From Alkalinema sp. RU_4_3 (GTDB lineage: Bacteria > Cyanobacteriota > Cyanobacteriia > Leptolyngbyales > Leptolyngbyaceae), in assembly GCA_012031975.1 (NCBI GenBank), contig JAAUSA010000032.1, forward strand, positions 1 to 32,726: 32,726 bases of DNA, read 5' to 3'. Of the stretch, positions 3,729 through 14,116 are shown in pieces. Within the stretch, counting starts at the first letter, position 1, and each line of letters begins with the position of its first letter. Made by a program: the position numbers and the translations under genes. Under the pieces are notes generated by a model. It was not told where the DNA came from. It searched no databases and saw nothing but the letters and a program-made list of their open reading frames with translations.

Positions 3729-4365
3729 ATGGTTACTTTACAGGCGAAAAATTTAACCTTGGATGAAGTGAGTCGCTACCTTAAGTTGCAGCGGAGTCTG
3801 GGGCGGCAGACCTATGGGGAACTTCTACCATTAGAGCCTGTGACGGAATTTGAGGGCCAGGAGATTGAGCAAATTCGGCTGGATTTTCAGGCCTATTGGC
3901 AGGCCGGGCGGGTGCTGGAGAGCCAGATTCAGTTATTGGTACTGGGGCCTTTGCTGCGCCTGGCGGGTTTTTATCGTGCGCCGATTAATTTGACTGTGGA
4001 GCAGCGATCGCGGATGTTGAGCTTGTAGATGAGGATGTGACGATTACGGGACGATTGGATTTGTTGGCGGCGGGGCGGGGCGGGGATAGACCGTTTTGGA
4101 TTTTGGTGGTGGAGTCGAAGAATAGTCAGTTGGAGGCACTCAATGGGTTGCCCCAGTTATTGACCTATGCAGCGGAGGGGCTGAAGCTGAGGAGTCGGTT
4201 TGGGGGCTGACGACGAATGGGATTAGCTATTATTTTGTGCGACTGTGCCCTGGGGAGGTGCTTCAGTATCAGTTGTTGCCCGAGCTGAATTTGTTTGATG
4301 CGGATCGATCGTTGCAGTTGTTGCAGGTGTTGAAGGCGATCTGTAAGATAGAACCCACAGCTTAA
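3729..4365 (+). pseudogene. Restriction-endonuclease-like protein, broken by two frameshifts
   Basis: Three overlapping reading frames together make one protein: frame 3 from 3729 to about 4005 (MVTLQAKNLTLDEVSRYLKL...), frame 2 from about 4007 to 4210 (DVTITGRLDLLA...FWILVVESKNSQLEA) and frame 1 from about 4190 to 4365 (VWGLTTNGISYYFVRL). The middle part shows the D-x(n)-E-x-K spacing of the PD-(D/E)XK nuclease fold (GRLDLL ... VVESK). It therefore resembles the type I restriction R-subunit N-terminal-like proteins common in cyanobacteria. Both breaks are equivalent to one missing base. The first lies next to a HIP1 octamer at 4004-4011. No methylase partner is present. The nuclease call is moderate. 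The frame interruption is directly visible. Confidence 0.6.
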
Positions 4366-8726: not shown

Positions 8727-8737
8727 GGTGTGTGGTT

Positions 8738-9571
8738 ATGAAACGACGGAATTTGATTTTGGGGGCTTCGGGGTTGGTGGCGGCGACGGCTGCTGGGAGT
8801 TTGGCAGAGGTTAAGGTTCCGGTGGGGTTGCCGAAGAAGATGCCTGGGGTTTTGGAGTTGCCGGGGAAGATGGTGATGCTGGGTAAGGATTTGATGGGTT
8901 ATTTGAGTTTGCCTATGGGTAAAACTTCTTCGCCTGCGGTGTTGGTGCTGATGGAGGCGTTTGGGTTGAATGCGAATATTAAGGGGGTTTGCGATCGTCT
9001 TGCTAAGGCGGGTTATGCGGCGTTGGCTCCGGATCTCTACCATGGGGAGACGTTTGCTTATTCGGATGCTCCGAAGGCGATCGAGAAGTTGAAGACGATT
9101 AAGGATGAGCAGGTTGTTAAGGAGCTGGAGTTGGGGTTGAAGTTTTTGGCTGGGGAGAAGATGGTGGATCAGGGTAAGAAGGTGGGGGTGACGGGGTTTT
9201 GTATGGGGGGGCGGTTGGTGTTTTTGGCGGCGGCGGCTTTTCCGAAGCAAATTGGTGCTGGGGTTGCTTTTTATGGTGGGGGGATTGCGGCGGATCGGAT
9301 CCGTTTGGGCGGCCCAGTTTGTTGAATCGGATTCCTGAGATTGGGGCTCCGGTGATGTTTATGTATGGGGCGGAGGATGCTTATATTGTGGCGGAGGAGC
9401 ATGGGCGGGTGGCTTTGGCGATGTCTAAGGCGAAGAAGTCCTATAGTTTGAATGTTTTGCGGGGGCGGGCATGGGTTTATGAGCGATCGGCGGGATAGTT
9501 ATAATCAGCCTGCGGCGGATGAGGCTTGGGGAATGACGTTGGCGTTCTTTGGGCGGCATTTGGGAGGGTGA
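8738..9571 (+). CDS. Dienelactone hydrolase family protein, two frameshifts
   Basis: This alpha/beta hydrolase with a Cys-Asp-His triad hydrolyses dienelactones or related esters. The nucleophile motif GFCMGG (Cys155) is in the first frame (8738-9325). The Asp segment APVMFMYGAEDAYI is in a second frame (about 9300-9465). The His segment GHGFMSDRRDSYNQPAADEA is in a third (about 9465-9571). So all three catalytic residues exist but in different frames. The first break equals one missing base near 9300. The second equals one extra G in the run at 9460-9465. The N-terminus KRRNLILGASGLVAATAAG resembles a twin-arginine signal peptide, suggesting export. The start ATG is 8738, 11 bp after the nitroreductase stop. 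This is either a pseudogene or has sequence errors. Confidence 0.75.
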
Positions 9572-9639: not shown

Positions 9640-11255
9640 TTGGTTGCCCCCTTATTGATTTTTTTATGCGTTTTGCTTCTGTGGGTCTGTCGGTGGGAGT
9701 GGTGCGATCGCGTCTCTTTTTGCGAGGCTGGATTGGCGGCGGAGAAGTTGACGCTGAAGTTTGGGCCGTTTGAGCAGACGGTTTCGGTGAATGATGTGGA
9801 GTCCTATGCGAAGACGGGGAAGGTTCCGGATTCGATGGGGGTGTATAAGCCGTTTCTCAGTGAGAGTGTGCGGAAGTCGCTGAATGCGAAGTTGGATATT
9901 GATCCGAAGTTAGGGAGTAAGGTTGTTGATGATTTGATGCGGTCTCCCATGGCGAAGCAGGCGTTGGCGACGCTTTTGCCTGCGGTGCCGGGGTTGAGTA
10001 CGGAGACGTTGCAGGCGGGGTTGACGATCGCGGCGAAGCAGTTTAATGGGTTGGATGCGGTGCGGGTGATTCGAGCTATTCCGCAGGATACGATTACGGT
10101 GGATGTGTCAGAGGCAATTGGGATTGCTTCTAAGGTGAATTTTAGCTATTTCAAGACGCAGGCGATGGGCTCTATTCTGCAGCGGGGGCTGACGGTGGAG
10201 GGGGCGAAGTTTACGTCAGATTTTGATGCGGCGGATAAGGGGGCTTTGCCTGTGGAGGTTGAGTCACGGGTGTTGGTGGATGAGAAGCGCGATCGACGTT
10301 TACCTGTCGATATCTACACGCCGAATACTCAGCTTGCAAATATGCTTAAGGTCGATCGCCCTTTGGTGGTGATTAGTCCGGGGTATGAGGCGAGTAAGAA
10401 TTTTCTGGCCTATTTGGGGGAGCATCTGGCGAGTCACGGCTTTACGGTGGTGGCGCTGGAGCATCCGTCGTCTGTGGTGAAGGGGCAGATTCAGTTGGAT
10501 GCGCTGGTGCCGGCTGATGAGGTGGTGAATCGTCCGAAGGATATTAGTTTTGTGCTGGATAGTTTGGCAACGCGGGATAAGCAACTGTTTAATACTGAGC
10601 AGGTGATGGTGATTGGCCATTCCTTTGGGGGCTATACGGCGCTGGCGCTGGCGGGGGCGGAGCTAAGGCTCGATGAGTTGCGTAAGTTCTGTGATACGTC
10701 TACGGTGCTCGATCGCGTTCCGGCGGACTGGTTGCAATGTTCGGCGACGAAGCTGAAGGAGAGTACGTTGAGTTTGCGTGATCGGCGGGTGAAGCAGGTG
10801 ATGGCGCTGAATCCGGCGATTGGCAATATTTTTGGGAAGGCGGGGTTATCTAAAGTTGAGACGCCGACGATGATTTTTAGTAGTAGTGAGGATGCTTTGA
10901 CGCCTGCGTTGTCGCAGCAGTTGCAGCCGTTTTGCAGTTGCCGATGCCGAAGTATTTGATGACGGCGATCGGGGGGACGCATTTGAGTGTGAGTGATCCG
11001 AGGAGTTTTAATCGGACCTTGGCGGATAGTACGTTGGTCAAGGAGAAGCGGGGGGCGGAGATGGATGGGTTGCGATCGGCGTTGCGGGGGGTGACGCTGG
11101 CCTATGCGTCTCAGATGACGACGCAGGGGAAGGTCTATTTGCCGTTTTTGTCGGCGGGGTATGTGCAGGGGCGATCGACTGGGGCGGTGGGGTTGCGGTT
11201 GAATCAGAGTTTGCCGGGGTCGGTGACGAAGTTTTTGGAGTTGGCGGCGAGGTAG
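9640..11255 (+). CDS. DUF1400-containing alpha/beta hydrolase, frameshifted
   Basis: This cyanobacterial architecture combines an N-terminal DUF1400 helical domain (AEKLTLKFGPFEQTVSVNDV, then segments to about residue 175) with a C-terminal alpha/beta hydrolase related to PAF-acetylhydrolase/dienelactone hydrolases. The oxyanion segment is VVISPGYEASKNFLAYLGEH. The nucleophile elbow is GHSFGG (Ser328 counted from 9640), and the Asp segment is PTMIFSSSEDALTPA. The His segment (LMTAIGGTHLSVSDP) lies in another frame, 10932-11255, after a break equal to one missing base near 10925. The real start is uncertain: a hydrophobic leader is spread over two frames around 9640-9740 (MRFASVGLSVG at 9666), suggesting another indel there. 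The protein is probably exported. Confidence 0.78.
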
Positions 11256-11299
11256 GAGGAGGAGGCCCTCACCCTCAAATACCTACCATTCAGGGATTT

Positions 11300-11348
11300 A
11301 ACCCGTTTCAACGGGTTTGAGCTGTTAGCCTGGGATTTTAATCCCAGG
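11300..11348. repeat. Palindromic repeat element (two stem-loops with GCTGTTAGC linker)
   Basis: AACCCGTT (11300-11307) pairs with AACGGGTT (11310-11317). The linker GCTGTTAGC (11321-11329) follows, then CCTGGGATT (11329-11337) pairs with AATCCCAGG (11340-11348). The order hairpin, linker, hairpin and the linker sequence match the element at 3541-3649, while the stems differ in sequence. It lies between the DUF1400 hydrolase and the reverse-transcriptase remnant, where the 5' half of the RT gene would be expected. Confidence 0.7.
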
Positions 11349-11800
11349 TGGGCCATGCGATCGTCGGTTAGCACCCGAATTGAATTCGCCAGCAGTAGCA
11401 GGATTGGGGCTAGGGGTAGTTCCTCTGGGCGACTCGACTTGCGCTCTTCTCAGACGATCGCGCTCAGCTAGCCGAAGCCCGCCACCAGCTCGAATCCTAC
11501 CTAGCCCAGCTCTATCTCAAAATCCATCCGGTCAAAAGCCAACTATTTGAAACGCGGCTGGGGGCTAATTTTGTCGGCTTTCGGGTGATGCCCGATCGGA
11601 TTCGTGTCCGCAATGACAATCTTCGCCGTTCGCGGCTGCGGCTGGCCCAGCGGCTGGTGGAGCATCGGCAGGGCAAGATCGATCGCGTCAGTCTCGATCG
11701 GGGCTTTGAAAGCTGGATGGCCCATCTTCAGCATGGGGATACTTGGCGGTTGCGATCGCAGATCGGCATTATCTGGGACCAACGATTAGCAAAGCTATAA
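11349..11800 (+). pseudogene. DGR-type reverse transcriptase, C-terminal remnant
   Basis: The readable part (open from 11420, stop at 11798-11800) encodes the end of a DGR/group II-like reverse transcriptase. It runs LALFSDDRAQLAEARHQLESYL, then LKIHPVKSQLFETR, then the thumb-boundary motif ANFVGFRVMPDR, a basic helix RRSRLRLAQRL and the tail SWMAHLQHGDTWRLRSQI. Full-length RTs of this type have about 300-400 residues. Here about 120 remain, so the palm motifs upstream are absent. Just before LALF, the DNA at 11429-11446 can be read as DDLALF only by removing one base and adding another, so the YxDD box looks degraded. The template repeat begins 26 bp after the stop. Identity as an RT is well supported by the C-terminal motifs. 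DGR membership rests on the adjacent TR/VR pair. Confidence 0.75.
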
Positions 11801-11826: not shown

Positions 11827-11948
11827 GCGGGGCGGTTCCTGGATCAACAATCCTAGGAATTGCCGCTCCGCCTACCGCAACAACAACTCGCCCGCCGATG
11901 CCAACAACAACATCGGTTTTCGAGTTGTGTGCGTCTCCCCCAGCACTC
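11827..11948 (+). repeat. DGR template repeat (TR)
   Basis: This 122-bp segment aligns without gaps to the variable repeat at 12896-13017 (offset 1069). It is rich in AAC/AAT codons when read in the target frame ([20 protein letters not shown]), as expected of DGR templates in which adenines mark mutable sites. Twenty positions differ between the copies. Sixteen are adenines in the TR, out of 26 adenines in the repeat. The rest are C11833, C11875, C11884 and C11944. The last 33 bases are identical except C11944, which lies in the part that would correspond to IMH*. It is non-coding in its own right and lies between the RT remnant and the target gene, all on the plus strand. Confidence 0.93.
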
Positions 11949-12161
11949 TTCTGCACCAGATCTTGACGGATGGGAATTCGTTGGGCGTGTCAAGAGAAGA
12001 GTCCAGACCTGCTCCGGCGATCGCTGGGTGATACAGGACAACTTAGGCGCTTGCTTAGGTTCGCCGTTGTTGCTCAGGATCCGAATACAAACCGCGACTT
12101 CAATAGCCTAGTAGAGCGATCGAACCGCTGGTTGAAGTCGCATCAAACTATTGCTTCTTCT

Positions 12162-13025
12162 ATGCCTACTCTGACCTTCAAGCCACATTCTGCCAAGATT
12201 CAGTACTTCACCGAAGATCTGGGCAAGAAGCTCTTGGGTAAGCACACCAGCCTTGACATGGTTTTCATTCCTGGTGGCAGGTTCACTATGGGATCGCCTG
12301 AGGGTGAACTAGAGAGGTTAGAGAGGGAAGGTCCCCAACACCTAGTCACTGTCCCCGAGTTTTTCATGGGACAGACTCCTGTGACTCAAGCTCAGTGGCG
12401 GCAAGTGGCGGGGTGGCCGCAGGTGGGGCGATCGCTCAAAGCAAATCCTTCTAACTTCAAAGGTGACGATTTGCCTGTTGAGCAGGTCTCCTGGTTCGCC
12501 GCTGAAGAGTTCTGTCTGCGGCTTAGTAAAAGCACAGGTAGGCGTTATCGATTGCCTTCTGAGGCTGAATGGGAATATGCCTGTCGGGCGGGGACGAATA
12601 CGCCTTTTCACTTTGGGGAGACGATCGATGCTGAGTATGCCAATTATCAGGCTGTAGATGAGAAGTTTGGTGAAACAGTTTATCCTGGCATTTATGGTTC
12701 AGGTAGGTTTGGTAACTATCGGCAAAAGACCACTCCTGTCAAAGAATTTCCGCCGAATAAATTTGGCCTGTATGACATGCATGGCAATGTTTGGGAGTGG
12801 TGCGAGGACCATTGGCATGGTGATTATAAAAGTGCGCCGATCGATGGTAAATCTTGGGTGGATAAAACGGCTGAAACCAAAGCTAGTAGGGTGTTGCGGG
12901 GTGGTTCCTGGCTCTTCGCTCCTAGGTTTTGCCGCTCCGCCTCTCGCATCAAGCTCTCGCCCGCCGATGCCTACAGCTCCTTCGGTTTTCGAGTTGTGTG
13001 CGTCTCCCCCAGGACTCAGCCCTAG
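12162..13025 (+). CDS. DGR target: formylglycine-generating-enzyme (SUMF1)-fold variable protein
   Basis: The 287-residue protein is almost entirely one FGE-sulfatase/SUMF1 (C-type-lectin-like) domain. Its motifs in order are MVFIPGGRFTMGSPEGE, PVTQAQWRQV, LPVEQVSWFAAEEFC, RLPSEAEWEYACRAG, FGLYDMHGNVWEWCEDHW, RVLRGGSW and [14 protein letters not shown]. The last 43 residues are encoded by the variable repeat, so the ligand-facing C-terminal loop is the diversified surface, as in other DGR targets. The start at 12162 puts the domain near the N-terminus. The frame is open 64 codons further upstream to 11970 ([19 protein letters not shown] ... LVERSNRWLKSH), which may be leftover coding sequence of a longer N-terminus. 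It is not expected to be a sulfatase-activating enzyme. A ligand-binding role is inferred from known DGRs. Confidence 0.9.
   Translation: MPTLTFKPHSAKIQYFTEDLGKKLLGKHTSLDMVFIPGGRFTMGSPEGELERLEREGPQHLVTVPEFFMGQTPVTQAQWRQVAGWPQVGRSLKANPSNFKGDDLPVEQVSWFAAEEFCLRLSKSTGRRYRLPSEAEWEYACRAGTNTPFHFGETIDAEYANYQAVDEKFGETVYPGIYGSGRFGNYRQKTTPVKEFPPNKFGLYDMHGNVWEWCEDHWHGDYKSAPIDGKSWVDKTAETKASRVLRGGSWLFAPRFCRSASRIKLSPADAYSSFGFRVVCVSPRTQP
12896..13017 (+). repeat. DGR variable repeat (VR)
   Basis: The variable repeat is the last 122 bp of matching sequence in the target gene, ending 8 bp before the end of its stop codon. Relative to the template, 16 adenines are replaced (9 by T, 5 by C, 2 by G). Twelve codons change amino acid: I-N-N, N, Y, N-N-N, N-N-N, I in the template become L-F-A, F, S, I-K-L, Y-S-S, F here. 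Framework codons between them ([20 protein letters not shown]) are untouched. The 3' part, GAGTTGTGTGCGTCTCCCCC, is GC-rich and identical in both copies, the position of the IMH element. Confidence 0.93.
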
Positions 13026-13298
13026 CCCTCTGCTCTTTTGCCCTCTTGCCCTTTGCGCTATCGAAAGACAGATAGTTCACGTTTCGCGCCAAGCGCGATC
13101 GATTTTCTTACAAAATTTCTGACCACCCAATGACTCCGGTCCCCCCAGGATTGGGGGCTAGGGGGCCAGCCAGCCAATGCGGAGTAGTACAAATTTTCAG
13201 CCCTAGGGAAGATGTCGATCGATGCTCGATTGCGCCAAAATAGCACTTATGTATTGAATGAAGGTGCATCTAGGCAAACCCTAGAACCGATCGCATCC
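13018..13298 (+). other. Region after the VR without a gene
   Basis: The first part (13018-13054) is a pyrimidine-rich tract with repeated GCCCT units directly beside the VR. At 13142-13157 CCCCC and GGGGG form a short GC hairpin, followed by a G-rich stretch. DGRs often carry a hairpin just past the VR, but this one lies about 125 bp away, so a role is unproven. No credible coding sequence was seen. Confidence 0.4.
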
Positions 13299-14116
13299 AT
13301 GGAAACAGATTCCCTCTTTTACCGCCTATTCGAGGAAAAACCAAAACTCCTCTTTGAACTTCTCGGCGAAAAACCGCCTAGGACCACCTATAGTTTCGGT
13401 GCCCATGAGTTGAAGCAGACCAGTCTCCGGACGGATGGTGTGTTGAAACCGCGATCGGCAAAGCGTCCTATTTTCTTCCTAGAAGCCCAAGGTTATCCCG
13501 ATCGCCACAAAAATTCTACGCTAGCTTCTTCGCCAAAATCTTCCTCTATCTTCGGGAGTATGCCCCACCCAATGACTGGCGAGCCGTAGTGCTGTTCACC
13601 AGAAAATCCTTCGATCCAGGTCCATCAATCCACTATCGGGAATTCTTCGAGAGCGGTCGATTGCGGCGGATTTACCTTGATGAGCTACCGATCGAGATGG
13701 GTGACCTTTCTCCTGAGATGGCGGCACTCCAGTTAATTGGGATGGGTGATAATGATGCGATCGATCGTGGCCGCATCCTCCTGGACCGTAATGACCAGAT
13801 CGCTGCGGATGTCACAGAGCATAAAAGAATCTTAGAATTAGTAGTGACGGTCTTTGTCCACAAATTTTCAAAGCTCAGTCGAGAGGAGATAATGAGTATG
13901 CTAGGCATTACTAGAGAGCTACGGAACAGCCGCTTCTTCCAAGACTTCAAGGAAGAAGGCCGAGAAGAAGGGCGGCAAGAAGGGCGAGAAGAAGGGCGAG
14001 AAGAACTCCTGTTAAACGTGGTCCCGATGTTGCTCCAAAACGGGATGTCTGTCGAAGCGATCGCCTCAAGCCTCAAGGTCTCAGTGGCCCAGGTCCAACA
14101 GGCGATCCCGTCATAA
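13299..14116 (+). CDS. DUF2887 / Rpn-like putative nuclease, frameshifted
   Basis: This is a cyanobacterial DUF2887 protein of the Rpn/PD-(D/E)XK group related to recombination-promoting nucleases. It begins METDSLFYRLFEEKPKLLFELLG. The nuclease core follows (TDGVLKPRSAKRPIFFLEAQGYPDRH, with D ... E-x-Q), then LPIEMGDLSPEMAALQLIGM and a basic/acidic helix containing repeated EEGR units (about 13949-14007). It ends in a small helix-turn-helix-like tail (GMSVEAIASSLKVSVAQVQQ). The frame breaks at a run of five A near 13510. Six A would give DRHKKFYASFFAKIF and join both parts. The break therefore looks like a homopolymer indel. The gene is adjacent to the DGR but is a common dispersed family, so association is not implied. 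Confidence 0.8.

Follow-up and report, generated by a model that had tools for sequence, protein, structure and literature searches.

A clade of diversity-generating retroelements (DGRs) with C-type-lectin targets has already been described in cyanobacteria (PMC7517822). The available text of that paper includes the Nostoc paralog all3226, which has remnant homology between a template repeat (TR) and a variable repeat (VR) and neither a reverse transcriptase (RT) nor an RT pseudogene nearby, and it proposes that the machinery is lost once a good variant has been selected. For Thiohalocapsa PB-PSB1, the accessible part of the report describes degenerate DGR loci and proposes diversification in trans (PMC10907252). 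Degenerate DGR loci are, in other words, already in the literature, and the locus presented here, which lies in a stretch of 32,726 nucleotides (the window) from a draft assembly of 362 contigs, adds one more such case.

The locus resembles the cyanobacterial clade of PMC7517822, as far as the available text describes it, in the type of target, in the logic of TR and VR, in the presence of an RT of that clade in the same genome and in the orphan targets found elsewhere. It differs from that clade in that a stub of the RT still stands between a dispersed repeat and the TR, that Avd was not detected, and that several cassettes in different states occur in one genome. With Thiohalocapsa PB-PSB1 it shares the coexistence of complete and degenerate loci and the consideration of activity in trans; however, the trans case in the part of PMC10907252 available to us consists of VRs that match the TR of another locus, whereas here the loci without an RT keep a TR of their own. 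The DGR of BPP-1 likewise has a TR, a VR, a structured RNA 3′ of the TR and a hairpin 3′ of the VR (PMC3240598 and PMC12875486, in the portions available). Unlike in BPP-1, the RT here is 5′ of the TR, and the hairpins have loops of mostly 3 nt and stand farther from the VR than those of the phages in the same portions, which are found at 4-34 bp and have 4-nt loops.

Results

The locus is made up of the following features.

11272-11397, no strand assigned: dispersed repeat, about 120 bp long, that ends shortly before the RT stub (from match rows within the genome)
11426-11800, plus strand: C-terminal stub of a DGR RT, YVDD motif missing (from identity to the RTs of contigs C171 and C72 of the same genome, the reading frame and the motif)
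11827-11948, plus strand: TR (from the gapless TR/VR comparison and the fit of the VR to four TRs)
11943-12091, plus strand: structured RNA element 3′ of the TR, with an enlarged terminal loop (from a covariance model match)
12162-13025, plus strand: target gene encoding an FGE/SUMF1-type C-type-lectin-like variable protein of 287 aa (from its domain and matches to relatives of solved structure; probable start)
12896-13017, plus strand: VR (from the same comparison and fit as the TR)
12982-13012, plus strand: 3′ stretch of the VR identical to TR 11913-11943 (31 bases), followed by a boundary base that is C in the TR and G in the VR (from the list of differences)
13084-13098, no strand assigned: hairpin TCGCGC-CAA-GCGCGA 3′ of the VR (from a hairpin scan)

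Direct comparison bears out the original prediction that TR and VR align without gaps over 122 bp with 20 differences, 16 of them at template adenines (nine A to T, five A to C and two A to G) and none at template G or T; the other four are at template C (two C to T, two C to G). The TR has 26 adenines in its 122 bases, and the probability that at least 16 of 20 differences would fall at A is 4.3e-10. Read in reverse, from VR to TR, none of the ten adenines of the VR is at a difference, and the direction is therefore from TR to VR. This one-directional bias agrees with the earlier exclusion of random divergence and gene conversion. In all, 14 codons and 13 residues differ on recounting, rather than the 12 residues first reported. 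Eleven of the residue changes arise through A; the AAC/AAT codons to which the adenines had been ascribed account for eight of these, the remaining three being in ATC, TAC and ATC. One N to K change is due to a C to G difference, and one S to R change is the C to G at position 118, the boundary base of the repeats, which is C or T in the TR and G in the VR in 26 of 30 pairs of the same cyanobacterial DGR family. To judge from the sequence, the identical stretch that precedes this base appears to be in the position of the region where mutagenic homing initiates.

Over 117 bases, the window VR has four non-A mismatches to the window TR, compared with 23, 19 (with eight gap columns) and 31 to the three other TRs of the genome. 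Those three were rejected as donors, and only the window TR fits. The same A-biased pattern recurs in 30 TR/VR pairs from 19 templates. We consider both the identification of the pair and its origin by adenine-mutagenic retrohoming to be well supported by these comparisons.

The target had been predicted to be a SUMF1-fold protein with the VR at its C-terminus, and this is upheld by a match to the FGE-sulfatase (SUMF1-like) domain PF03781 (201.3 bits, cut-off 23.3) in a gene whose 3′ end is the VR. The listed reading frame begins at 11970 and overlaps the RNA element; we infer that the ATG at 12162 is the likelier start. The closest solved relatives by sequence are PvdO (5hha, 6.3e-38), which is not known to be a DGR protein, and the Treponema denticola variable protein 1 (2y3c, E 5.4e-24), which is, like the window target, an FGE-type DGR variable protein but comes from a different phylum from the window host. 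The PF03781 domain, the VR at the C-terminus and the sequence match to 2y3c place the target among the DGR variable proteins of C-type-lectin fold. Its AlphaFold model has a mean pLDDT of 82.4.

A consensus for the RNA element was built from the stretch 3′ of the TR at 17 loci, with the window left out. In 16 of its 26 pairs, both partners are changed in one sequence or more. The covariance model without the window recovers the window copy at 65.3 bits (E 2.8e-13) over all 101 model positions, and at 54.9 bits under stricter filters, with no non-standard pair marked in the displayed part. The window copy is the second weakest of 26, the others scoring 79-106 bits except one at 44.8 in G006. 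Four copies are present in the genome of the window: those of C72, C171, C111 and the window itself. Rfam gave no credible match between 11000 and 13300, the two matches there being below gathering score. The element matches the BPP-1 spacer by position; the available part of PMC12875486 assigns to that spacer the recruitment of RT-Avd and the priming of cDNA, and by analogy the window element may recruit RT-Avd as well. In Nostoc punctiforme, the TR RNA is reported to be very highly expressed (PMC12691664, in the portion available). A literature search with incomplete coverage of DGR RNA work found no description of the element in cyanobacteria, and we do not claim the first. Four templates that have no RT nearby (L090, L099, L104 and L105) carry the same variant stem, in which ACTCC or ACTCTC with GGGAGT replaces ACTCTTC/GAAGAGT.

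The RT of the window cassette is represented by a C-terminal stub only. It covers residues about 231-343 of related RTs, roughly the last third, in a frame that is open to the stop TAA at 11798-11800, and is 64% identical to the RT of C171 and 52% identical to that of C72. The stub begins where the YVDD motif would stand, and the motif is absent; no Pfam family matched the stub on its own. The order of stub, TR and VR is the same as that of RT, TR and VR in C72 and C171. Avd was sought in the window and in the DGR loci that were fetched, and the whole of the window gave no match at E 1e-3. Without RT and Avd in cis, the window locus is a degenerate DGR and not a complete one; the origin of the pair by DGR retrohoming, as originally proposed, holds, but the present cassette is incomplete. 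The stub retains an open frame of about 120 codons, and the RNA element also persists, which points either to a recent loss or to continued use of these parts.

The dispersed repeat ends about 30 bp 5′ of the stub. When 11240-11445 was compared with the genome, it returned 47 match rows, among them its match to itself; the weakest rows span only about 20-60 bp. Two other damaged DGR remnants, the RT of C111 and a scrap of Avd on C181, have copies at a distance of about 130-145 bp, and no copy was found in the sequence fetched for C72 and C171. This pattern, which was noticed after the fact, suggests that such repeats stand at the breakpoints of damaged DGR loci. The repeat itself has two palindromic parts, and several of its copies are at contig ends. 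Elsewhere in the window, three overlapping pairs of reading frames (8732-9325 with 9199-9498, 9640-10959 with 10932-11255, and 13212-13589 with 13589-14116) look like single genes split by frameshifts, through either sequencing errors or decay.

The hairpin 3′ of the VR was evaluated with a rule that asks for a short loop, a score of at least 11 and a distance of 100-260 bases from the RGG motif. Such hairpins were found for 20 of the 34 VRs, the window VR among them, for one of the 19 TRs and for 5% of 3000 random pieces. Their stems differ in sequence with pairing maintained, and in a few of the 20 the loop or the location is different. Under the same rule, no hairpin exists for at least eight VRs, including one VR of C72. 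The window hairpin lies within the range of positions of the DGR target-site hairpin or cruciform and is possibly its counterpart, or else the stem of a terminator. In BPP-1, a hairpin 3′ of the VR is needed for efficient homing, according to the accessible part of PMC3240598.

The same genome holds other DGR parts in several states. C72 carries a complete cassette in the order VR gene, Avd, RT, TR and second VR gene. Its Avd matches NF033474 at 122.7 bits (cut-off 80), its RT is a 351-codon frame with YVDD and GTG starts that is 59-64% identical to RTs on plasmids of Acaryochloris, Microcystis, Nostoc, Fischerella and Anabaena, and each of its VRs differs from the TR at ten of 117 bases, all at A. 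C171 has the same gene order and an Avd that is also above the NF033474 cut-off, with a frameshift in the RT that is possibly a sequencing error; its VRs have 16 and 12 differences, 14 and 10 of them at A, the other two in each being at the 3′ boundary. At 1443-2000 of C111 (L042), there is a TR with the RNA element and an RT that lacks residues about 73-322, and no VR matching this TR was found. For four VRs (two on C181, one on C305 and one on C261), neither DNA search nor the RNA model located a TR in the assembly. Those of C181 (L043; at 3313 and 4886) and C305 (L045; at 169) are on the minus strand and are related, with 15-19 differences per pair, and the Avd scrap of C181 is at 4183-4251. 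C258 has a further FGE gene, which ends in a similar, more distant motif. An ORF on C161 was considered as the missing N-terminal part of the RT, split across contigs, and was rejected, being only 25% identical to the C72 RT; it is presumably an intron-type RT.

The RNA model was run against 24 genomes, a set chosen from a kinship table rather than at random, and 14 of these yielded 26 copies between them. The element is present in 13 of the 42 genomes available for the window's family. The RT near the 26 copies is full length in ten, interrupted after about residue 16 in one, frameshifted in one (C171), cut by the contig end in one and a remnant in four (the window, C111, G014 and G040:C20); it was not found for nine, in fetched stretches of 4-19 kb, some of which stop at contig ends. 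Loss of the RT near the RNA element thus appears, from these sequences, to be frequent. In G027 (85% complete) and G044 (93%), the search for an RT yielded nothing; in G004, G005, G006 and G011, its yield was limited to RTs of 24-28% identity or other matches to RVT_1. At three of the nine loci for which no RT was found (L140 of G004, L137 of G005 and L139 of G006), the end of a target-like gene directly precedes the RNA element; the arrangement looks like the product of recombination between VR and TR with loss of the intervening DNA. At L096 of G025, Avd and a full-length RT are on the strand opposite to two VRs and the RNA element.

We counted non-A mismatches at core positions 6-97 of 107 (internal mismatches) as a guide to whether a pair is active. 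None was present in 14 of 16 pairs with a full-length RT, one of six with an RT remnant, three of five for which no RT was found and all three with a frameshifted or contig-cut RT. By Fisher's test, full length against remnant gives p = 0.004 and full length against absent p = 0.23, values that involve pairs from the same locus, which are not independent, and classes that were defined with the data already known. In the window pair, two non-A mismatches are internal and one is near the 5′ end, and the C72 pairs have none; since two internal ones are uncommon with an intact RT, we suggest that retrohoming has stopped at the window. The pairs for which no nearby RT was found are mostly clean, so a locus need not be silent for want of an RT beside it. 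G042:C4 has all ten of its differences over 130 bases at A, with the RT on another contig, and hence an RT-less pair can look freshly rewritten; a further RT-less pair of this appearance, G040:C13, also has a DGR RT on another contig.

Discussion

We suggest that the window holds a degenerate cyanobacterial DGR cassette whose target is most likely frozen in its last variant, and we consider this account probable. At the intact stage, an RT-Avd complex would have bound the RNA element 3′ of the TR, a role taken from BPP-1. Reverse transcription of the TR would then have introduced changes at adenines, and the resulting cDNA would have been substituted for the VR in the 3′ end of the target gene, altering a patch of the lectin-like protein that presumably binds a ligand. 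Later, the cassette would have lost Avd and the first two thirds of its RT, with the dispersed repeat at the break, although the order of these events may have been different. What remains is the TR, the RNA element, the VR, the hairpin and the target gene, probably silent at present.

The persistence of the RNA element, the boundary region and the hairpin would also be expected if the locus were a non-autonomous DGR, in which the TR RNA of the window is copied in trans by the RT-Avd of C72 (or of C171, should its frameshift be a sequencing error) through the shared 3′ RNA element, and the window VR is still being diversified. C72 does supply a complete Avd and RT, and the RT-less pairs G042:C4 and G040:C13 look freshly rewritten in genomes that have a DGR RT elsewhere. 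However, the non-A mismatches of the window pair set it apart from the pairs of C72, the very cassette that would serve it, and its RNA element is the second weakest of all copies; we therefore regard continued service in trans as unlikely. An assembly artefact, in which a misjoin at the dispersed repeat would hide an RT that is still whole in the cell, is a good deal more doubtful still. The assembly is fragmented, the split reading frames in the window suggest base errors, and a repeat with so many match rows, several copies of which are at contig ends, stands about 30 bp from the stub. Nevertheless, the genome yielded no other DGR RT fragment that could account for the missing part, and a join at the repeat would still leave the repeat adjoining the stub. 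Ordinary duplication or gene conversion of the gene end, with no retroelement involved, could draw on the four differences that are not at A, but it is contradicted by the one-directional bias, the RT stub, the RNA element and the recurrence of the same pattern in 30 pairs, and we give it practically no credence.

As a degenerate cassette, the window illustrates how the enzyme of a hypermutation system can be lost and its target persist, in a genome that also has a complete cassette, a frameshifted one and orphan parts. The covarying RNA element offers a way to find templates that have no RT gene, and it makes the notion that one RT serves several templates directly testable. A more speculative and rather improbable extension is that cyanobacteria carry satellite-like, non-autonomous DGRs, consisting of a TR, a structured RNA and a VR with no RT of their own, that are diversified in trans by the RT-Avd of a different cassette, which would recognise the RNA element they share, and that the window is one of them. 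If this were true, a single enzyme would act on several private and dissimilar templates by way of an RNA handle.
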